A DNA stretch of 64,000 nt, from contig CALSRS010000001.1 in the NCBI GenBank assembly GCA_943788815.1, positions 964,069 to 1,028,068 of the forward strand, written 5' to 3'. The notes under the pieces are model-generated. The model ran no database searches, had not been told where the DNA came from, and worked only from the letters and a program-made list of their open reading frames with translations. Positions 6,416-37,550 of this stretch are shown in pieces. The DNA is from an uncultured Gammaproteobacteria bacterium (lineage in GTDB: Bacteria > Pseudomonadota > Gammaproteobacteria > Eutrophobiales > Eutrophobiaceae). The position numbers and the translations under genes were made by a program. Position 1 is the first letter of the stretch; each line of letters starts with the position of its first letter.

Positions 6416-6549
6416 TATTGTGTCACCTATTTGATCACTTATTTTTCCCTGCGGATTGTAGCAGGTCTGTGAAAAGCTTCCTAATACGCCTGTGAATTGA
6501 TAGAAATAATATGCACAAGATTCACATGATTTCGCTGTGGCAAAATCAA

Positions 6550-6581
6550 ATCCTGTTAATCTTGTCAATCCTGTCTATTAA
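6550..6581 (-). repeat. Dispersed CAGGATT-ACAAGATT-ACAGGATT repeat, copy 1
   Basis: On the minus strand this reads as GACAGGATTGACAAGATTAA followed by CAGGATT. Near-identical copies are at 31764-31800, 31876-31910 (inverted) and 37519-37550. All are intergenic. This copy lies upstream of ttcA, between it and the DUF924 gene. Confidence 0.7.
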
Positions 6582-27810: not shown

Positions 27811-27856
27811 CAAGAATACTCAATAGGGCCAGAGTAAAAATATTCAAAACCAAATT

Positions 27857-27901
27857 TGGCGCGCCTGGCAGGACTCGAACCTGCAACCCTCGGGTTCGAA
27901 G
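27857..27901 (-). repeat. 3' fragment of tRNA-Arg, probable attachment site
   Basis: 45 bases repeat the 3' half of the intact tRNA-Arg at 28692-28768 in direct orientation with one mismatch (GGCAGG for AGCAGG in the acceptor/T-arm part), ending at the anticodon loop (GGGTTCGAAG), after which identity stops. That arrangement, an intact tRNA and a displaced 3' fragment ~0.8 kb away on its 3' side, is the classic footprint of site-specific integration. No integrase remains. Confidence 0.85.
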
Positions 27902-28027: not shown

Positions 28028-28142
28028 ACAAAATGCGTATTTTCTCTGAATATACAGCCATTTATAGATCTGCATTAACAGTTAGGATTCATGAGAAAGA
28101 TTTACTATAATCTGCCATAGTCTCCACATGAAGGTAACCGCA

Positions 28143-28364
28143 ATGACAGAAGCAGCAAAAAAAATATTCCATGACGCTATGAATCTGCCCTCGATAGAAC
28201 GTGCCTCGTTGATCGAGGAATTGTTATCCAGTATGGATAAACCCGATTTTGAACTCGATAAGCTATGGGTAAAAGAAGCAGAGGATCGTTTGGCGGCATA
28301 TCGTCGAGGAGAAATAGAATCATTTCCTGCTAACGAAATATTCGCTGAACTTGGTCGGACTTGA
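28143..28364 (+). CDS. Addiction module antitoxin (TIGR02574-like)
   Basis: 73 residues from ATG 28143, which has AAGGT ahead and matches the family start MTEAAKKIFHDAMNL; an ATG five codons earlier (28128) is also possible. The core PSIERASLIEELLSSMD is the usual text of the short addiction-module component. The stop overlaps the toxin start by four bases (TTGA). It would bind and neutralise the next gene's product and repress the promoter. It lies within the tRNA-Arg-bounded island. Confidence 0.85.
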   Translation: MTEAAKKIFHDAMNLPSIERASLIEELLSSMDKPDFELDKLWVKEAEDRLAAYRRGEIESFPANEIFAELGRT

Positions 28365-28651
28365 ACGTCAGATTTCTCCGTCCAGCCCGCACAGAATTAC
28401 GGGGAGCGGTTGCATATTACGAAGACCAGAACGTTGGACTCGGAAAGCAATTCCGTGATGAGGTTTTTAAATCCGTAGAAAGAATCAAACAATACCCGAA
28501 CGCATGGACTCCATTAAGCGGGAATATACGTCGTTGTAGGACGCTACGGTTTCCGTATGGAATTATCTATGAAGCCACAGGTACCGAAATTTTAATACTT
28601 GCAATAGCACACATGCATCGCCGCTCAGACTATTGGCGTACCCACAAGTAA
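28361..28651 (+). CDS. RelE/ParE family toxin
   Basis: 96 residues. Family pattern: RFLRPARTELRGAVAYYEDQ at the N-terminus, LGKQFRDEVFKSVERI, RCRTLRFPYGIIYEATG and IAHMHRRSDYW at the C-terminus, as in ParE-type toxins (gyrase poison) or RelE (ribosome-dependent nuclease). The TTG start overlaps the antitoxin stop, so translation is coupled. Sequence alone does not tell whether the target is gyrase or the ribosome. Confidence 0.88.
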   Translation: MNVRFLRPARTELRGAVAYYEDQNVGLGKQFRDEVFKSVERIKQYPNAWTPLSGNIRRCRTLRFPYGIIYEATGTEILILAIAHMHRRSDYWRTHK

Positions 28652-28691
28652 TAGCGTTGATTAGTTGGAATACAGCACGATATTATTGAAT

Positions 28692-28768
28692 TGGCGCGCC
28701 TAGCAGGACTCGAACCTGCAACCCTCGGGTTCGAAGCCCGATACTCTATCCAGTTGAGCTACAGGCGC
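28692..28768 (-). tRNA. tRNA-Arg (anticodon TCG)
   Basis: 77 bases on the minus strand. Acceptor stem GCGCCTG pairs with TAGGCGC (last pair G-T), the D-arm has AGCTCAACTGGATAGAG, the anticodon stem TCGGG/CCCGA encloses the loop CTTCGAA, hence anticodon TCG, and the T-arm is GCAGGTTCGAGTCCTGC. CCA is encoded. Its 3' end borders the small toxin-antitoxin island. Confidence 0.95.
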
Positions 28769-28899: not shown

Positions 28900-29133
28900 A
28901 TGACGAATCCTAACTCTGGTTTGAGAATCTCAAACAATATCCATGTTAAGCGGGCTGAACGTAAGCTCACCCAGCAGGCATTAGCCGATGCCCTTAATGT
29001 CACACGTGCAACCATCCATGCCATAGAGAAAGGAAATTATAACCCTTCCCTGGTCTTGGCATTCAAACTTTCACGTTTTTTTGATACGGATATTCATTCA
29101 ATCTTTTTTGTGGAGAATGAAAATGAAAAATAA
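28900..29133 (+). CDS. XRE-family helix-turn-helix regulator
   Basis: 77-residue DNA-binding protein with one HTH_3 domain: RKLTQQALADALNVTRATIH and AIEKGNYNPSLVLAFKLSRF. Such short regulators are often paired with a membrane protein of unknown role, as is the case here: the next start lies inside this gene. The upstream repeats are probably its binding sites. Confidence 0.9.
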   Translation: MTNPNSGLRISNNIHVKRAERKLTQQALADALNVTRATIHAIEKGNYNPSLVLAFKLSRFFDTDIHSIFFVENENEK

Positions 29134-29722
29134 CTATTTAAAATATTTTATTAACTATGTCCTGTATGCATCACCCCTCATTATATTCTTGATTGTATGG
29201 GCGGGTATTATGCATTTTGATGAATCCCCGCCTTCTTCTTCCACTACATCATTATTATATAACGCGCTGGGGATCCATGGTGCCTTCTGGATACTCTGCG
29301 CAGTCATACTGTCTTTTTGTCTGGTAATGTCAAAAGAACTCCGGCAAGAATTATTGGTAAAGTTGGCCAGAATAAAAGAAAGGGATGAAAGAGAATCTCA
29401 AATTGCAGGCGGAACCAGTAAAGCCGTTTTTTTATCCTCGACGGCTTTGCTGATTTTTTTATTATTGACGTCGGCCATTGATGTGACGATTTCAAAAAAA
29501 TCAGAAGAAATATTAAGTGAAGGAGAAAAGTCAGGGACACTAAGTGTTGGTCTTGGACTGGATGTGATCGACCATGAAGCCATCGTCAGTCATAAAGAAG
29601 GATATGAGATGTATTTTCAGTTTATCGATATCCCTATCACTAAATCCGGGTTAATACTGTTACTGCTCATATGGAACATCAGTAGCTACCAGTATTTTGC
29701 AAGGACGCAGTATAAAGAATGA
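29123..29722 (+). CDS. Four-helix membrane protein paired with the XRE regulator
   Basis: 199 residues. Four hydrophobic segments: around LYASPLIIFLIVWAG, GAFWILCAVILSFCLV, FLSSTALLIFLLLTSAI and SGLILLLLIWNISSYQY. A charged cytoplasmic loop (RIKERDERESQIAGG) lies between helices 2 and 3, reminiscent of DUF2178-like partner proteins. I choose ATG 29123 with GGAG seven bases ahead; it overlaps the regulator gene by 11 bases. Function unknown. Confidence 0.75.
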   Translation: MKNNYLKYFINYVLYASPLIIFLIVWAGIMHFDESPPSSSTTSLLYNALGIHGAFWILCAVILSFCLVMSKELRQELLVKLARIKERDERESQIAGGTSKAVFLSSTALLIFLLLTSAIDVTISKKSEEILSEGEKSGTLSVGLGLDVIDHEAIVSHKEGYEMYFQFIDIPITKSGLILLLLIWNISSYQYFARTQYKE

Positions 29723-29944: not shown

Positions 29945-31753
29945 ATGAAATTGTATAGTAAATTTACCATCTTTATCTTATCAATCAGCCTGATTTCCCA
30001 ACCAGTCATTGCTCAGGAAATGACCATAGCTGAGTTAAAACAAAGGGCAGCGGAACGCAACGCTATCTATGCGCCCTGGGACCCGGCGGATTTAGACACG
30101 CGACGTAAAGAAGTGGGGCTGATTGGACCAGGTCCTCAAAATGACTACCCCCCGGCCCGTTTTCCTGATTATCTTATAAAGCCTAATACCATAGATGAGA
30201 TGATGCCCCAGGCTATGGCGGCTGTTGCCCAGAAAGGTGGGCGTACACCGCTGGGTCTGGCAGACCCCGGTGATGTCGTATTAATCGTCATACCATGGAA
30301 TGCTGATCCCTTGATTCAACAGGCGATCCAACAGGCATTTGCAACTCGCAAGGTAGAAGCCAGGATCATCTTTGAAAATGATCTCGTGAATATCCCCAAA
30401 GAAGATATGCAGGCACTTGCGGATGCCAAGGCGTTGTTCAAGGCTGGTGACGGTCAACAGGAATCCTCTGCCTTTTTGGAACGCCTCGGTGCCTTTCCTG
30501 ACTTTAATGTTTACAAGGAATTTGTCAGGAAGACAGATCCTGTCTACTACCACGCCACCTGGCCGGAACTGAAATACCCTAACGAAAAGACGGCTGAACT
30601 TGACAGAAATTACTGGACCGCCACACCCAATGCAGTAATCGCTTACCTGGACGAACATCCTGAAGTGGACAAGGTTTTTTACCAAACAGGAGGGCGGACC
30701 AACGCAAAATCATCCCTTAAACATCAGGGGGCAAAGTTTATTGGCAACTACACTTATGTGAACCATTATGATCTGATGAGCAAGGTCCCCAACGTACCTG
30801 CGGACGTGTGGCGAATGTTGGAAGGCAAGATCATTGACCCTCTTGCATTTAGTGATCGATATGAAATCTCAGATCCTGAAGGCACGGTTATGTGGGGTGA
30901 TGTCACCCCGGATGAAGCCCGTAGCTGGGGTGATGGTTCATACCAGCAGGGACATCTATATATGTTACCCAGCCAGGCCAGCGGTCGTTATCCGTATTCG
31001 AGAATTAATTACCCAGCCATTGGTGATAACTGGATTGTTCCAAAACAGACCCGTACTCATGGTATCGTCGCGTCGACCAATAGCCACGCAACCAATCATG
31101 CCAGGATAGAGGTCCATCTCAAGGATGGCTACATCGATTCAATCAAGGGTGGCGGCCTGTACGGTGACGGGATGCGGGTTTCTATGCAGTACCCCAATAT
31201 TAATACCGCTTTGTGGCCATTTCAGACCAAGCCAGGTTTCTGGTGGTTATACGAAGCGGGCACCGGGACAAACCCAAAATATTTCAAGCATCCCGCTGAG
31301 ATACTGACAGGACAAAACTTGTCTGAACGCAATGCCGGCGGGGTGATTCACTGGTCGTTTGGGACTGAGATACAGAATGGTCCGGAGCCGGGTAATACCA
31401 TGATGTCACCCAAGTCGATTGATTTCGCAAAACAACATGATCTGCCAGTGGGACACGGTATGCATCACCATTCATTAATGCCTACCTTTCAAATCCGGTT
31501 AAGAGACACTGGAAACTGGATAACACTGATTGAGCATGGGATAGTGCAGACCTATACTGATCCTGAAGTTCGAGCCCTGGCCTCGCGGTATGGGAATCCT
31601 GATGAGTTACTCAGACGTGACTGGATCCCGGAATTACCTGGTATTACCGTCCCCGGAAACTATAACGAGGACTATGCTTCCGATCCTGGTAGTTACTGGA
31701 TAAACTGGGCGAATAGTATCCAGGATGGGACGAATCAATATCTTGGGAAGTAA
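29945..31753 (+). CDS. Exported M29-like protein, paralogue 1 of the ABC locus
   Basis: 602 residues, signal peptide ~1-24 (ends near VIAQ). Closely related along its full length to 35694-37511. I recognise no named family, but the C-terminal half resembles thermophilic metallopeptidases (M29): YEAGTGTNPKYFKHPAEI with Glu437, GGVIHWSFG with His469, then HGMHHHSLMPT with His507 and His509, like the E...H...HxD metal site of M29, with the last Asp replaced by His. Residues ~310-330 (YEISDPEGTVMW) also fit. It probably acts in the periplasm or outer envelope. It starts the locus; ribosome site GGGGGACGG. Confidence 0.6.
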   Translation: MKLYSKFTIFILSISLISQPVIAQEMTIAELKQRAAERNAIYAPWDPADLDTRRKEVGLIGPGPQNDYPPARFPDYLIKPNTIDEMMPQAMAAVAQKGGRTPLGLADPGDVVLIVIPWNADPLIQQAIQQAFATRKVEARIIFENDLVNIPKEDMQALADAKALFKAGDGQQESSAFLERLGAFPDFNVYKEFVRKTDPVYYHATWPELKYPNEKTAELDRNYWTATPNAVIAYLDEHPEVDKVFYQTGGRTNAKSSLKHQGAKFIGNYTYVNHYDLMSKVPNVPADVWRMLEGKIIDPLAFSDRYEISDPEGTVMWGDVTPDEARSWGDGSYQQGHLYMLPSQASGRYPYSRINYPAIGDNWIVPKQTRTHGIVASTNSHATNHARIEVHLKDGYIDSIKGGGLYGDGMRVSMQYPNINTALWPFQTKPGFWWLYEAGTGTNPKYFKHPAEILTGQNLSERNAGGVIHWSFGTEIQNGPEPGNTMMSPKSIDFAKQHDLPVGHGMHHHSLMPTFQIRLRDTGNWITLIEHGIVQTYTDPEVRALASRYGNPDELLRRDWIPELPGITVPGNYNEDYASDPGSYWINWANSIQDGTNQYLGK

Positions 31754-31763
31754 GATGTTTTGT

Positions 31764-31910
31764 ATGGACAGGATTAACAAGATTTACAGGATTTTCATCA
31801 TTATTAATCTAATCATTTGCCGTTAAAATTGATTAGAAAATTGGCTCATGATGTATCAATAGAAGAATAATTAATATTCTTGTCAATCTTGTAAATCCTG
31901 TCTAATAATT
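31764..31910. repeat. Inverted pair of the dispersed repeat (copies 2 and 3)
   Basis: GACAGGATTAACAAGATTTA plus CAGGATT at 31768-31794 and its reverse-complement relative around 31876-31902 (CTTGTCAATCTTGTAAATCC plus TGTC) can form a long stem with a ~80-base loop. It lies between paralogue 1 and the permease gene and could act as a processing site or weak terminator. Confidence 0.65.
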
Positions 31911-31932
31911 AAAATTAATAGGGAGAAGTAAG

Positions 31933-34905
31933 CTGAGTAGTCACAGCCTTTATCTTGCGAGAATCCTGGGCAAGCGTTCATTTGCGGTTTTTGCCCTGGT
32001 CACATTTTTAATCGTATCGATCCTGGCGTCGGTCAATATTGCTTCACGGTTTGCCCTGAAGAGATACGTTGAAGACCAGCTTGACCGAATTGCCTGGGAT
32101 ATTTCTGGTTACCAAACTGGAGACGTGTTGGCGATACCAGAAGTTACCTCTGCCTTAAGACAAACCGACGGTATCAGTGACCACAACAACCTATTATTCC
32201 TCAGGAATTCCATGACCACTGAGGATATTGCATATATAGATGGTCAACCTATCAAGATGCCCTGGTTGTCATTACTGACGACCAACGATACCTCTGTTTT
32301 ACCGTTAAGCATACGCCCCCTCGAAGGCAAGGCCGTGCTTGTTCTGGTTGGAACCAAAGCCCAGATGGGAAATGCCTATGCAGAACTGCAAAACCGTAAG
32401 CTATTTGAACTAAAGATCGAAAATGAACATTCTGGTGAGGAAGACCATCATGAAGACGAGATCGTAACCGATGACCACCATACGGTCAGTTTTGATGTCT
32501 TTGATCTTGAGCTTGAACGCACCATCCGCATTGAACGTAAGGATCTGAATCGTTGGTTCCTGGAACAAACCAGTTCACCGTCATTGATCCCTGAAATTGG
32601 AGCGATCCTAGTGACACCCTATGATGAAGATATTATTTCTTCATTTGATGAATTGGCAAGGGGCATAGTCACCCAGCATGCCCATGATGATATCCATGAG
32701 GAAGCAGGAAATTATTTCCCCGACATCATTCACCTGTTAAAGGTGGATAGCGACCGATTGGTCTCCGGTTGGGACATCAAAGGCTCCTTGACCAGGTTAA
32801 ATGAATTACAAGCCAGGCTGGAAACCAATACCTTTGCGATTGGTCCTCGTGTCTTCATCGATAATTCCATCAAAGTTCTGCTCGAGAGGATGAACGAAAC
32901 AGCACAGAAGGTAGGACTGATTAGCCTCTTGATTGCCCTGCCCTTGATCTGGGTCGGCTGGATACTCATGGCAAACCTGACAGGCATGTTACTACTGAAT
33001 GAACGCAGAAAATTTGGATTAATGCGTCTAAGGGGTGTCCCCGGCAAAGTCATGGGACGCGCCTTACAACTATCTATAGGTTCCGGGGCGCTATTGGGGG
33101 GAGTTATCGGTGCACTGGTGGGAACCTTACTACCTATCTTCTTTTATGAAGGTGGCATGTTACCCATCAAGACGATACTGGTTGTCCAGCAACCTTACAT
33201 CCTGCTGACATTTATTATTATTGGTATGGGCGTCGCGCTTGCTGTTAGTCGGAAACTGGTTAACTATGCCTCTCGAATTTCACCCCTTGAGGCCTCTGGT
33301 AGAGTGGTGGATTCTGAATCCAAGCAAGCCAACGTCAAATTTGGTTTTTTGGGTTTCATGTCACTATTACTGGGAAGCTATAAAATTTTTGGCTGGATAT
33401 TCAGCTATTCCATCGCCGCCAATTCAGAATCTAAATGGCTGGTGAGTTTTGATCAGATACTGGACTTCGCGGGCTTCCCGCTATTCGTTTACGGACTGGT
33501 CACTTTCCTGGTGTCACGGAAAACCCTCATGAACCATGTGTTGAAATTGATTATCACAGTGATAGGTGGATCACTACGACACCTGACTCTAAAACATATC
33601 GCAACACGACCGCAACGGGTCGCCGGTTTTTTGCTCATCGTTGCCATGATGACTACCATCGGGCTTTATCCCACCGTCATGACGGCGGTGTTTGATAATA
33701 AGATTGAACGCGGGACCCGAGTACAGGTTGGTTCGGATATTCAGCTGACATTAAATGCATCAGATATTGTCAGCAACGAACTGCTGGCCAGTGGTGGCGT
33801 TGGTGAACAATATCGCGCCATTCAACAAGAAATACCGTCACTGATAGAGGCCATGGGAAATGCTGAGGGTGTCAGCAAGGTGACCTGGACACTGTTTGAA
33901 GGTGTCTCCGATGGTGTTTATATGCCGGGTTATGGATTTAATGGATTGCCGCTGTATTTCATTCCTGATGCAGATGAATATATGAATGCGGTGTACTCTG
34001 AAGAGTCCCTTTCTCAGCAAGGTCAGTTTTCTGAATTAATGACTGGGCTAGCTGATGGCAATGTGGTGATGTCCCCTGCCGTTGCTGAATTTACTAAAAA
34101 GATGCCCGGGGAATCCACCATACTCGGCAGGCAGACTAATGGTACTGATATGGTCAATGCCACTGTGGGTGGCGGCGTTTGGTACTTACCCGGCAGCCCT
34201 TTGGTATCGGTTACAGACCGCGAGTCGTTTGATACCGCAAGAGTGGACTATGTGAATTACCTGTTCTCCAATAATGCCTACATGGCGGTTGATCCTAACC
34301 AATCCTCTTTAAATGACCTGGATGTCCTCATATCCGGTGTCCAGTTTGCCATAGATGTGACACCTGGCTTTGACCCATATGAAGTTAGTCAAAATGTAAT
34401 TCGCTCATTGCCCATAGAGCCGTCAACCATACGCACCTTCAATGAAGAGATCAGCAAGATAGGCAGTGACATGTATATTTTTCTGGCCAGACAGAACGTA
34501 CAGATTTATTTGTTTGGCGGATTGTTGCTGGCGATTATTGGCATATTATCTGTCGCCTATACCAATTACATGGAAGACCGGCGTACCCTGGGTCTGCTAC
34601 GCATACGCGGCGCCAGCCCCAAACACATGCTACGGTTTTTCGGTTCCGGGATCTTTGCACCGTCTTACATCGGACTTGTTCTGGGAATAATGGTATCTCT
34701 GATTGTAGGTTATGGAATTACCAACCTGGTCTGGGAATTACGTGAAGTAAAAAATATTCTGTTATATCTGGTGACCCGCATCGATGTCTCGCAGCTGACA
34801 TTCATCATTGGACTGGTTTTGTTTGGCATCATCACCACTGTTGGAATCGTGTTTAGTCGATGGGTATTTTACAAATCTGTTCGTGAAGGCCTAAGTGATA
34901 ATTAA
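31933..34905 (+). CDS. FtsX-type ABC transporter permease with probable CTG start
   Basis: 990 residues if started at CTG 31933, which has GGGAGA six bases ahead. No ATG, GTG or TTG occurs in frame between the previous stop (31906) and GTG 32125, and the added 64 residues contain the first membrane helix (FAVFALVTFLIVSILASVN), needed for the family. Ten or so helices: 1, then three at ~336-440, more at ~480-600 and three at the C-terminus. Two large outside domains; the first has a His/Asp-rich loop (EEDHHEDEIVTDDHH). The family exports lipids, lipoproteins or peptides or acts as a mechanotransducer. Confidence 0.78.
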   Translation: MSSHSLYLARILGKRSFAVFALVTFLIVSILASVNIASRFALKRYVEDQLDRIAWDISGYQTGDVLAIPEVTSALRQTDGISDHNNLLFLRNSMTTEDIAYIDGQPIKMPWLSLLTTNDTSVLPLSIRPLEGKAVLVLVGTKAQMGNAYAELQNRKLFELKIENEHSGEEDHHEDEIVTDDHHTVSFDVFDLELERTIRIERKDLNRWFLEQTSSPSLIPEIGAILVTPYDEDIISSFDELARGIVTQHAHDDIHEEAGNYFPDIIHLLKVDSDRLVSGWDIKGSLTRLNELQARLETNTFAIGPRVFIDNSIKVLLERMNETAQKVGLISLLIALPLIWVGWILMANLTGMLLLNERRKFGLMRLRGVPGKVMGRALQLSIGSGALLGGVIGALVGTLLPIFFYEGGMLPIKTILVVQQPYILLTFIIIGMGVALAVSRKLVNYASRISPLEASGRVVDSESKQANVKFGFLGFMSLLLGSYKIFGWIFSYSIAANSESKWLVSFDQILDFAGFPLFVYGLVTFLVSRKTLMNHVLKLIITVIGGSLRHLTLKHIATRPQRVAGFLLIVAMMTTIGLYPTVMTAVFDNKIERGTRVQVGSDIQLTLNASDIVSNELLASGGVGEQYRAIQQEIPSLIEAMGNAEGVSKVTWTLFEGVSDGVYMPGYGFNGLPLYFIPDADEYMNAVYSEESLSQQGQFSELMTGLADGNVVMSPAVAEFTKKMPGESTILGRQTNGTDMVNATVGGGVWYLPGSPLVSVTDRESFDTARVDYVNYLFSNNAYMAVDPNQSSLNDLDVLISGVQFAIDVTPGFDPYEVSQNVIRSLPIEPSTIRTFNEEISKIGSDMYIFLARQNVQIYLFGGLLLAIIGILSVAYTNYMEDRRTLGLLRIRGASPKHMLRFFGSGIFAPSYIGLVLGIMVSLIVGYGITNLVWELREVKNILLYLVTRIDVSQLTFIIGLVLFGIITTVGIVFSRWVFYKSVREGLSDN

Positions 34906-34938
34906 TATTTAATATAAAAATATTCAGGAAGAAATTAA

Positions 34939-35637
34939 ATGAGTGAATCTGAAATAATGATTAAGGTAGATAAAGTCATAAAAAAATATAACACCGCAGC
35001 TGGTGAGGTCCAGGCATTGAAAGAAATCTCCTGGGAAATCAATCGTGGTGAAGCCATCGCCATCATGGGGCCCAGTGGATGCGGTAAAACCACATTGCTT
35101 AACCTGATGGGTTCCATGGATCATGCCACCAATGGCAAGATAATTGTAGATGATCAAGACGTCACGCGTATGAGTGAACGCGAAGCAGAATTGTACCGGC
35201 TCAAAAAGGTCGGGTTTATCTTTCAGTTTTTTAACCTGGTGCCTTCGTTGACTGCAATAGAAAACCTTGAATTACCGATGATACTGGCTGATATTCCCAA
35301 AGATGAACGATTAAAAAAGGCCCAGGAGTTACTTGATGCCGTGGGGCTAGGTGAAAAAGGTCATAAACGTCCCGAAGAACTCAGTGGTGGTGAGCAACAA
35401 CGTGTCGCTATCTGCCTTGCCCTGGTCAATGATCCGGATCTCATACTTGCAGACGAACCCACGGGGAATCTCGACGTCGCAAATATGGAAGTTATTACTA
35501 ATTTGCTCATCTCACTTGCAAAAGAACAGGGAAAGACCGTCATAGTCGCCACCCATGATCAAAAAATGGCAGATACTTTTCCCCATACTTACCGAATGCG
35601 CGATGGCAAGTTTGAATCACAAGTGCTCAACCAATAA
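34939..35637 (+). CDS. ABC transporter ATP-binding protein (LolD/MacB type)
   Basis: 232-residue ATPase with Walker A GPSGCGKTT, Q-loop FQFFNLVPSL, signature LSGGEQQR, Walker B LILADEPTGNLD and H-loop ATHDQ. This subfamily partners FtsX-like permeases for lipoprotein sorting, macrolide or peptide export. ATG 34939 has AGGAAG ahead. It follows the permease by 33 bp; no membrane-fusion protein gene is present in the locus. Confidence 0.95.
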   Translation: MSESEIMIKVDKVIKKYNTAAGEVQALKEISWEINRGEAIAIMGPSGCGKTTLLNLMGSMDHATNGKIIVDDQDVTRMSEREAELYRLKKVGFIFQFFNLVPSLTAIENLELPMILADIPKDERLKKAQELLDAVGLGEKGHKRPEELSGGEQQRVAICLALVNDPDLILADEPTGNLDVANMEVITNLLISLAKEQGKTVIVATHDQKMADTFPHTYRMRDGKFESQVLNQ

Positions 35638-35693
35638 GATTACTTTAACAACTTTTTTGAATAGCCAAATTAATCACCCTGAGGTCAGATAAC

Positions 35694-37511
35694 ATGAACC
35701 TAGCAATTAGAATACCGTTAATATTTTTACTATTCGGTTTTTCATACTCAAGTCTCTATGCGGACAATCACCTGTCGCCAGAGCAACAAAAAATGACCAT
35801 AAAGGAACGGAACCTTGTGTATGAGCCCTGGAACCCGGCTGATATGGAACAACGCCGCAAGGATATAGGCTTGATAGGTCCCGGAACACAAACACCCTTT
35901 CCCGAAGCCAGGTTTCCCGGCTATCTGGAGAAACCAGAAAATATAGATGAATTGATGCCTCAGGCACGGTATGCCGTATCCCAAAAAGGCGGGCGAGCTC
36001 CGCTTGGCCTGGTAGAACCTGGTGATATTGTTTTAATCCCATTACCTCATCACGCCGACCCCATGGTTACCGAAGCAGTAACTCGTGCATTTAACGCGCG
36101 AAGAGTGGAAGTCCGTTTCATCTTTGAATATGAACTGGCTGGCATCTCCCGGGCTGATCTCGAAACCATTCAGGAAATTAAAAATGTCTTCAAGGCAGGC
36201 GATGGACAGCAGGAACTGAATTATTTACGAACAACAGGGGCGTTTTCAAATTGGGACGAGGCTGTGCGCTGGACTCGTGAAAAGGATCCAGAATTGGCTG
36301 ATGCGACGTGGCCACAATTTAAATATCCCACTGAAGAAATAGCCCAACTTGCCAAGAATTATCCGTCACTGGTAAATGCTGCCGTGGTCAAATACCTGGA
36401 TGAACACCCTGAAGTCAATAAGGTCTTCTGGCGCACTGGTGGGCGGCCATTCGCCATGCATGCATTGAAACATCACGCCACCAAAATGGTGGGCAATTAC
36501 ACTTACCTGAATAATTTTGACATTATGAGCAAGGTACCGGCCTACCCGTCTGATGTCTGGCGCATGATAGAAGGCAAGATGATCGAACCCATGTCTTATA
36601 CTGACAGGGTTGAGGTAACGGATCCTGAAGGCAGCGCGTTTTTCTTTGAACTGACGCCGGAAGAGGCAAGTATTTGGAGCCAGGGGTCTTACCTGCAGGG
36701 CCATATTTTCATGATCCCTTCCCAGTCTTCAGGTATTTATCCCTTCTCATTTATCGAATACCCGGTACAGGAAAATAAATGGTTACCCACCGTTCAGGTC
36801 ACCACCGCAAACGGCATCATCGCTTCGAGTAACAGCCATGCTTCCAACCACCCGAGAATGGAAATCCATTTTACAGATGGTTACGTTAAGAAAATCAAAG
36901 GCGGCGGTTTGTACGGTGATGGATTCAGGTTATGGTTAAGCTATCCCAATATTAATGATGTCACCTGGCCATTCCAGAAGAACCCGGGGTTCTGGTGGTT
37001 ATTTGAAGCGGGGACAGGGACCAATCCAAAATACTTTAAACACCCAGGTGAAATGCTGATCGGTAGTAATCTGTCTGAGCGAAATGCCGGGGGTGTTATA
37101 CACTGGTCTTTCGGTGCGGAAGTAAAAAATGGTCCCGAAGAGGACAAGGAAAAATCCGCACGATCACCAAAGGCTCTCGAGTTTGGAAAGGATAATAACC
37201 TGCCTATTGGCCATGCCATGCATAACCACATACTGTTACCTACCTACCAGATGCGGTTGCGTGACAGCGGTAACTGGGTGACGGCCATTGAACACGGGCA
37301 GATCATGGCCAGCCGTGATCCCGAAGTCCGCGCCATCGCCTCGCGTTACGGCGACCCTGATGAAATCCTCAAGCGTGACTGGATACCGGAATTACCAGGT
37401 ATTACCTCACCTGGTAACTACAACGATGACTATGCCTCTGATCCTGGCACTCACTGGATTAGATGGGCCAACAGTATCTTTGATGGGACGAATGCGTATT
37501 TGAGTGAGTGA
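35694..37511 (+). CDS. Exported M29-like protein, paralogue 2 of the ABC locus
   Basis: 605 residues, signal peptide ~1-23 (ends SLYADN). Matches paralogue 1 along its length, roughly 55-60% identical by eye, including LIGPG, KAGDGQQE, YLDEHPEV, MSKVP, GGGLYGDG and RDWIPELPGIT. The M29-like features recur: FEAGTGTNPKYF with Glu438, VIHWSFGAE with His470, and AMHNHILLPTYQ with His510 and His512. So the metal-site-like residues are conserved between copies while surroundings differ. It follows the ATPase gene by 56 bp and probably belongs to the same transcript. Confidence 0.6.
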   Translation: MNLAIRIPLIFLLFGFSYSSLYADNHLSPEQQKMTIKERNLVYEPWNPADMEQRRKDIGLIGPGTQTPFPEARFPGYLEKPENIDELMPQARYAVSQKGGRAPLGLVEPGDIVLIPLPHHADPMVTEAVTRAFNARRVEVRFIFEYELAGISRADLETIQEIKNVFKAGDGQQELNYLRTTGAFSNWDEAVRWTREKDPELADATWPQFKYPTEEIAQLAKNYPSLVNAAVVKYLDEHPEVNKVFWRTGGRPFAMHALKHHATKMVGNYTYLNNFDIMSKVPAYPSDVWRMIEGKMIEPMSYTDRVEVTDPEGSAFFFELTPEEASIWSQGSYLQGHIFMIPSQSSGIYPFSFIEYPVQENKWLPTVQVTTANGIIASSNSHASNHPRMEIHFTDGYVKKIKGGGLYGDGFRLWLSYPNINDVTWPFQKNPGFWWLFEAGTGTNPKYFKHPGEMLIGSNLSERNAGGVIHWSFGAEVKNGPEEDKEKSARSPKALEFGKDNNLPIGHAMHNHILLPTYQMRLRDSGNWVTAIEHGQIMASRDPEVRAIASRYGDPDEILKRDWIPELPGITSPGNYNDDYASDPGTHWIRWANSIFDGTNAYLSE

Positions 37512-37518
37512 AAAAAAG

Positions 37519-37550
37519 AATAGACAGGATTAACAAGATATACATGATTG
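37519..37550 (+). repeat. Dispersed repeat, copy 4
   Basis: AATAGACAGGATTAACAAGATATACATGATTG, here given as ATAGACAGGATTAACAAGAT plus a less-conserved tail, just after the stop of paralogue 2. A partial inverted ATCTTGTTAATGA lies ~20 bp further on (37568-37580). Confidence 0.6.

Follow-up and report, generated by a model that had tools for sequence, protein, structure and literature searches.

Gene organization of the module

This analysis concerns four adjacent genes in a window of 64,000 nucleotides (the whole stretch analysed; positions 964,069 to 1,028,068 of contig CALSRS010000001.1, from an uncultured gammaproteobacterium) that encode an ATP-binding cassette (ABC) transporter and two exported proteins, which very probably work together. 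An initial annotation had described, on one strand, an exported protein, an FtsX-type permease, its ATPase and a paralogue of the first protein, and all four genes are confirmed on the forward strand. Protein A (M29L_A, 602 residues, 29945-31753), recognized by its reading frame, its AlphaFold2 model and a signal-peptide-like N terminus, is followed by an FtsX-type (type VII) ABC permease (31933-34905), by a LolD-like ABC ATPase of 232 residues (34939-35637), identified from Pfam, NCBIfam and PDB matches, and by protein B (M29L_B, 605 residues, 35694-37511), assigned from its reading frame, alignment and N terminus. The outer proteins are paralogues over nearly their whole length, as had been proposed, with 57% identity (340 of 597 aligned residues). 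The intergenic gaps measure 179 nucleotides between gene A and the permease gene, 33 between the permease and ATPase genes, and 56 between the ATPase gene and gene B.

The length of 990 residues first given for the permease fits the frame, but it holds only if translation begins at the CTG at 31933. The frame is open from 31909 and contains no ATG, GTG or TTG from there until a GTG at 32125, a start at which (the 926-residue form) would remove the first membrane helix. The CTG is preceded by a purine-rich stretch, and the codon aligned with the start is CTG in all five of the gammaproteobacterial loci compared, the window included. No ATG, GTG or TTG occurs between this CTG and the preceding in-frame stop in the window (31933), in locus L010 (9945) or in L014 (4138), and in L011 and L012 an ATG lies in frame, two codons ahead of the aligned CTG. 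Judged from these alignments, the CTG at 31933 is probably the start codon of the window permease, giving the 990-residue form.

The transporter

The transporter is of type VII (FtsX/MacB), since the FtsX domain, the permease fold and a separate LolD/MacB-like ATPase are all present. The FtsX domain profile PF02687 matches two stretches of the permease (926-residue form) with 33.1 bits against a cut-off of 25.5, and the ATPase matches ABC_tran (3.6e-35) and the LolD model (2.9e-68, under its equivalog cut-off), with LolD chains among its best PDB matches. Ten hydrophobic segments appear in the hydropathy profile of the window permease, and 10 to 12 in those of three relatives; according to a report on YbbAP-TesA, four helices are typical of the type VII family and ten are found in YbbP (PMC12646458). 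Its two periplasmic domains measure 290 and 270 residues, and the structure model agrees with this; the first (residues 36-326, 32038-32910), delimited by hydropathy and alignment, carries loops rich in His, Asp and Glu.

When the permease model was compared with known structures, YbbP came first both in Foldseek (E 3.3e-15) and in VIA-align (Z 21.1, root-mean-square deviation (rmsd) 6.6 over 541 residues; second YbbP chain, Z 19.3), with LolC/E and MacB placed after YbbP and BceB. As modelled, the permease thus appears YbbP-like, and its sequence (926-residue form) gave no match at E <= 1 to the YbbP sequence family NF041854.

The window genome also carries a divergent TesA/YbbA-YbbP-like gene set (locus L075, 2934-6716), whose products match the YbbP model with 1.1e-152, the YbbA model with 1.3e-79 and the TesA model with 5.1e-52, all under the curated cut-offs, and whose permease has E. 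coli YbbP as a PDB match (4.7e-116). Because this much closer set lies elsewhere in the genome, the window module can be ruled out as the genome's YbbAP-TesA and is to be regarded as a separate system.

The resemblance to YbbAP-TesA, a recently solved complex of E. coli, extends beyond the structural match of the modelled permease, since in both systems an ATPase goes together with a permease that has some ten helices and two domains in the periplasm, and the gene for an exported enzyme lies close by. They differ in that the window proteins resemble M29 aminopeptidases and NicX and not a GDSL esterase, in that the window system has one or two exported-protein genes oriented like the ABC genes, and in that the window permease falls outside the YbbP sequence family. 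The type VII ABC fold, PF02687 and a LolD-like ATPase are further shared with FtsEX-EnvC, LolCDE-LolA, MacAB-TolC and BceABS, which have other partners. The initial statement that no described system has this layout therefore requires modification: none was found for these genes in the titles and abstract beginnings of the open-licence literature, but YbbAP-TesA (PMC12646458) is a close analogue.

Fold and family of the exported proteins

Signal-like N termini support the export that had been proposed for both paralogues, and an N-terminal hydrophobic segment is found in 30 of the 39 exported proteins in alignment A3. That the number is not higher is due in part to the fact that the start was set by the alignment and not by a start codon in 18 of the 39 (as it was in five rows of alignment A6 besides the window's), which cuts some of the signal peptides.

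Sequence searches do not place these proteins in a known family. No significant Pfam or NCBIfam family match and no PDB sequence match of weight was obtained for them, and when the exported protein and its distant relatives were compared with the sequences of Pfam and the PDB, only weak, sub-threshold matches were returned. The profile PF02073 (Peptidase_M29) has no match at E <= 1 to the exported proteins or anywhere in the window genome, and the TesA-type GDSL hydrolase family does not match them. Profile comparison links the exported family strongly to shorter exported relatives, L043 and L044 (E 4.8e-18).

The AlphaFold2 model of protein A, built from 39 sequences, has a predicted template modelling score (pTM) of 0.80 and a mean local confidence (pLDDT) of 78.5, and the Foldseek search with it supports the M29-like fold suggested in the initial annotation: only four PDB matches reach E <= 0.001, all of them AmpS or NicX, at TM-scores of only 0.25-0.42 (AmpS 1zjc, E 4.7e-7, TM-score 0.25/0.33; NicX 7cn3_A, E 9.3e-6, TM-score 0.27/0.42). 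VIA-align places NicX first (Z 8.6, rmsd 5.9 over 272 residues), followed by PepS (Z 7.5 over 311 residues) and AmpT (Z 7.0 over 293 residues), with interspersed adenylation-domain rows that reach Z 7.5 over only about 100 residues. The exported proteins are accordingly predicted to be M29/NicX-like in fold. They share with the M29 aminopeptidases AmpS, PepS and AmpT a fold over about 300 residues, and differ from them in being exported, in having extra N- and C-terminal parts and in being tied to ABC genes. With NicX, a 2,5-dihydroxypyridine dioxygenase, they share the fold class.

A distant relative of 510 residues, with no signal peptide by eye, is encoded in genome G033 beside a protein of 351 residues (L083, 4495-7836 for the pair). 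Inspected by eye, this neighbour resembles NicX and M29 proteins; Pfam gave no match for it at E <= 0.01, and the surroundings of the pair look like a catabolic gene cluster.

The candidate metal site

The metal ligands of AmpS are Glu253, Glu319, His348, His381 and Asp383, with Tyr355 nearby (PMC7023490). Glu319 corresponds to Glu437 of protein A (codon 31253-31255) and His348 to His469 (codon 31349-31351), on which the MAFFT and hhalign alignments against M29 agree. The remaining candidates lie in the stretch His504-Gly-Met-His507-His-His509 (codons 31454-31471). AmpS His381 falls on His504 by MAFFT, and hhalign places His504 on the matching His of L043 and L044. The counterpart of Asp383 is less certain: MAFFT places it on His507, in agreement with the intermediate L042 (His-x-His against His-x-Asp in M29), but in the hhalign comparison with L043/L044 the M29 Asp falls on Met506. 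From these alignments the M29 Asp is probably replaced by His. His509 is extra relative to the His381/Asp383 pair, no acidic counterpart of Glu253 occurs in the alignments made, and the Tyr355 column contains Val, Ala, Ile or Ser.

Glu437, His469, His504, His507 and His509 are invariant in all 39 aligned relatives, and a metal site is likely to be present. The initial annotation had named Glu437, His469, His507 and His509, together with the matching four residues of protein B, and these indeed exist in four invariant columns. Their proposed likeness to the M29 site holds for Glu437 and His469, but the His-x-Asp pair corresponds to His504 and, less surely, His507, not to His507 and His509. The site is not that of an M29 aminopeptidase, whose catalytic set Glu/Glu/His/Tyr/His/Asp (EEHYHD) is not found in the exported proteins; as neither the first Glu nor the Tyr is retained and the Asp is probably a His, the proteins are M29/NicX-like without being demonstrable aminopeptidases. 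NicX binds Fe(II) with His265, Ser302, His318 and Asp320 (PMC7910607); the candidate ligands here, in an exported protein, are one Glu and three or four His, and the sequence searches yielded no alignment with NicX.

These residues bear on two explanations of the module. FtsX-type transporters can export or bind peptides, and the transporter might export or extract a peptide that the exported proteins, acting as aminopeptidases, would trim, a role that the modelled M29-like fold would suit. The loss of the M29 catalytic set and the lack of a match to any Pfam or NCBIfam peptidase family speak against such a role, and no recurrent maturation gene was found among the neighbours, where open reading frames of at least 100 residues were considered and a small peptide gene could be missed. 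Peptide processing is consequently quite unlikely, and the aminopeptidase-type chemistry put forward in the initial annotation is probably wrong. The second explanation is that the exported proteins are non-catalytic and that the transporter merely controls their binding or release, as FtsEX controls EnvC. Type VII transporters typically act through a periplasmic partner (PMC12646458), which is compatible with such regulation, but invariance of the candidate ligands in 39 of 39 sequences, duplicates included, is not expected of dead enzymes and makes this explanation highly improbable.

Linkage of the exported proteins to the transporter

The species genomes of GTDB (84,980 genomes) were scanned with two short peptide patterns, which yielded 28 loci in 25 assemblies by contig name; this set is a lower bound, and the search favours copies containing NPKYFKH. 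In 25 of these 28 loci outside the window the ATPase gene adjoins an exported-protein gene on the same strand, and the permease is also matched in 22 of the 25, the contigs of the other three stopping in or just past the ATPase gene. Homologues occurring mostly without ABC genes had been named in advance as evidence against a functional tie, and the opposite is observed. Chance clustering is ruled out by these counts, and because the grouping recurs in records labelled as Gamma-, Beta- and Alphaproteobacteria, it is very probable that the parts of the module work together.

The linkage is kept while the layout changes, as can be seen from the gene orders in the three groups. The order A-permease-ATPase-B is found in the window and in L010, L011 and L012, and permease-ATPase-B in L014; L018, which carries the label Herminiimonas, has permease-ATPase-enzyme. 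In the 20 loci with the label Alphaproteobacteria one or two enzyme genes are followed by the ATPase gene and then the permease gene; two enzyme genes lie side by side in 15 of these, and the paired frames overlap by four bases in L017, L019 and L030. The two paralogues that bracket the ABC genes thus represent a real layout, but only one variant of it, since the alphaproteobacterial copies precede the ATPase gene and some loci have a single copy. The records titled Klebsiella pneumoniae (L011, L016 and probably L012) seem to be mislabelled; in the genome of L011 (G453) the match coordinates are nearly those in G001, a genome of the window's own genus.

The module is rare. Among 58 related genomes the exported protein was matched in eight, in five of them at full length or to the contig end and in three as distant partial matches; the five all belong to the window's genus, and the permease was matched in exactly the same five. 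With the best two or three candidates scored per genome, the exported protein was found across the phylum in one of 398 genomes, the window's own, and in the order of G456 in three of 399, two of them distant, and the permease was found in the class of G455 in one of 385, G455 itself. With the best six candidates scored, four of the 199 genomes in the family of G455 contain the exported protein. The 18 genomes chosen for holding a locus have one to four copies of the exported gene each, and the genome of L018 has two extra partial matches. No FtsX-type permease was seen near the distant relatives in G033, G1082 and G035 when the leading 110 residues of every open reading frame were inspected by eye. 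Plasmid-borne copies were not seen either, protein A having no plasmid match at E <= 0.01. An antiphage defence system was considered and rejected, as neither the permease nor the exported proteins have a PADLOC match at E <= 0.1, and the PADLOC matches of the ATPase are only ones that read as generic ATPase similarity.

Two individual copies may be recorded here. The only exported-protein copy found in genome G467 (L035, G467:C8:19251-21014) has one internal TAG and is possibly a pseudogene or an assembly error. At L008 (8859-14403; G000:C2) a solitary paralogue adjoins two large proteins that belong to a single family. One of the two (586 residues) has matches to Vgb-type lyase models, with scores far under the cut-off.

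Neighbouring genes and clues to the substrate

Among the 30 loci compared (open reading frames of at least 100 residues), no further gene cluster recurs in more than 7. GGACAGGATTWACAAGATTTACAGGATT-like elements and other flanking features are described at the end of this section.

The first clue to the substrate concerns metals. In all 22 permease sequences the first periplasmic domain contains 8-20 His, some of them in the loops rich in His, Asp and Glu, against 0-4 in the second. Genes for CopC-CopD and DUF1775 lie upstream in 7 of the 28 loci and a DUF305 gene downstream in 7, together in 8 loci, all labelled Alphaproteobacteria (the proteins of L020 were scanned against Pfam and the other loci by tblastn, and two of the 8 are cut by contig ends). 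DUF1775 (YcnI) is reported to bind copper (PMC8424229). These features could be explained if the ABC machine supplied a metal, with copper as the first candidate, to a periplasmic metalloenzyme, or matured or allosterically activated it, the His-rich permease loops collecting or sensing the ion. The copper genes are confined to those 8 loci, however, none having been found in the gamma- and betaproteobacterial loci within the available flanks; the His-rich stretches are variable in length and poorly modelled, and 10 His in 290 residues is not extreme. We also know of no description of metal supply by a type VII transporter. A role in metal handling is on balance rather unlikely.

The second clue is a TonB-dependent receptor gene of one family that adjoins the module in the window and in all four of the other gammaproteobacterial module loci, and that also lies near two of five solitary copies (L009 and L015, but not L008, L013 or L016); the solitary paralogue at L009 is in addition near a gene resembling those for pyrroloquinoline quinone (PQQ) dehydrogenases. 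The exported proteins might accordingly act on a compound imported by the receptor, with the ABC machine playing a secondary part. The proximity is less telling than it appears, because the window genome contains 24 receptors of this family, and the 21 loci outside the gammaproteobacteria yielded none, so that outer-membrane uptake as the function of the module is very unlikely. The adjacent receptor, being one of 24 relatives, is ruled out as a dedicated partner. Seven receptor genes of one family lie head to tail at G000:C1:1287785-1302708, one of them with an internal TAA, among the 24 members in this 3.2-Mb genome. As clues to the substrate, the His-rich loops, the copper genes and the receptor are none of them decisive.

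Several features flank the genes of the module. The dispersed intergenic element of the GGACAGGATTWACAAGATTTACAGGATT type has three copies in the window (31766-31902, 37522-37549 and 6549-6576) with 0-3 mismatches, where 0.00 would be expected by chance; the copy that separates gene A from the permease gene forms inverted arms of 25 nucleotides, and another lies right behind gene B. Just upstream of the module (28900-29722), a small open reading frame that by eye resembles an XRE-type regulator overlaps a gene for a membrane protein of 213 residues that has no significant Pfam match. Farther upstream, a direct repeat of 46 nucleotides (27856-27901 and 28691-28736; 98% identical, 835 nucleotides apart) copies part of a tRNA-Arg gene (28692-28768), and between the repeats lie two short overlapping open reading frames (28128-28364 and 28361-28651) that appear toxin-antitoxin-like by eye. 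The region looks like a small tRNA-targeted insertion.

Duplication and constraint

A tree of 44 sequences was used to determine how the pairs of exported proteins arose; its outgroup branch is very long and the branch of L018 is long, and only the minimum number of duplications is taken from it. The 14 gammaproteobacterial copies group together with support 100/99. Within this clade there are an A-type and a B-type subclade, both of which have solitary offshoots of their own, and the alphaproteobacterial pairs have an origin separate from that of A and B. Wherever the root lies, the exported gene was duplicated independently at least twice, and since each of these events left two enzymes beside one transporter, selection for a pair of exported proteins is suggested. 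In comparison with L010, all four genes of the window have a proportion of nonsynonymous differences (pN) of 0.04-0.12 and of synonymous differences (pS) of 0.71-0.74, with synonymous divergence (dS) saturated, which indicates constraint on all of them.

Interpretation of the module

The explanation that we favour, at slightly less than even confidence, is that the four genes encode a type VII ABC machine from which exported metalloenzymes, dedicated to it, receive a substrate derived from the membrane, in the manner of YbbAP-TesA but with another enzyme. It is based on the genes themselves, their linkage and co-occurrence, the invariant site and the folds as modelled; docking, metal binding, catalysis and the hand-over of substrate are steps that we infer. 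In YbbAP-TesA the exported esterase is held between the permease's two domains in the periplasm and is proposed to take up lipids drawn out of the membrane; its authors regard the extraction step as still to be shown (PMC12646458). In the proposed machine, two copies of the ATPase would drive the permease, and the exported proteins would dock on the periplasmic domains of the latter. Glu437, His469, His504, His507 and perhaps His509 would hold one or two metal ions, and the exported proteins would chemically modify a lipophilic or membrane-bound substrate, either by hydrolysis or by oxygenation. A and B would either form a heterodimer or be two enzymes whose substrates differ.

A number of observations weigh against this explanation. 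Some concern the exported protein, whose match to the M29/NicX fold is modest (Foldseek TM-scores as given above, with rmsd 11-16) and whose active-site stretches 440-445 and 459-468 are modelled with pLDDT below 50. According to a note on the tool, Z values of 7-8 are typical of models that have no clear match, a level which the Z of 8.6 for NicX barely exceeds, and the fold assignment is therefore made from the coverage and from the Foldseek list. Profile comparison with M29 is collinear though weak, with probabilities of 0.3-13.8%: one run gave E 0.04 and 1.3%, and as intermediates were added E was 0.2, 0.018 and 0.002 and the probability 0.3, 2.6 and 13.8%. Others concern the transporter. 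The permease model is middling (pTM 0.67), and BceB (Z 19.9 and 19.5) comes nearly level with YbbP (21.1 and 19.3); BceB has no first periplasmic domain (PMC12646458). In sequence, the window permease and the YbbP-like permease encoded elsewhere in the genome are only marginally similar, at E 0.009 over 135 residues. The remaining observations concern the unity of the module. Three of the 28 loci are unlinked (L013, L015 and L016), although their assemblies each hold a linked copy too; the window genome has four copies of the exported gene, two of them away from its single copy of this transporter; and behind a partial copy at a contig edge in the genome of L018 no ABC gene was seen by eye within 8 kb. 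The exported enzyme may therefore act alone. Gene A, moreover, may lie outside the permease transcript, since the gap of 179 nucleotides that separates the two genes contains an inverted repeat.

A more specific possibility, unlikely though it retains an appreciable share of the probability, is that the type VII machine is dedicated to an exported metallo-oxygenase or metallo-lyase, with ATP hydrolysis serving either to feed a membrane-embedded substrate to an M29/NicX-fold pair with a new Glu-plus-His site, or to load metal, perhaps copper, into it. To our knowledge, an ABC transporter would then for the first time be found working with a metalloenzyme that has this fold, and YbbP-like permeases would have a second kind of enzyme partner.

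If the favoured explanation, a machine that delivers a membrane-derived substrate to exported metalloenzymes, is correct, the module brings to the cell envelope a protein that is M29/NicX-like but whose metal site is altered. A second module of like architecture, with an enzyme of unrelated fold that is tied to its transporter in different groups of bacteria, would suggest that the combination of a pump with an exported enzyme follows a general principle and is not peculiar to TesA, and the genes described here provide a defined set with which the substrate and the metal can be tested.

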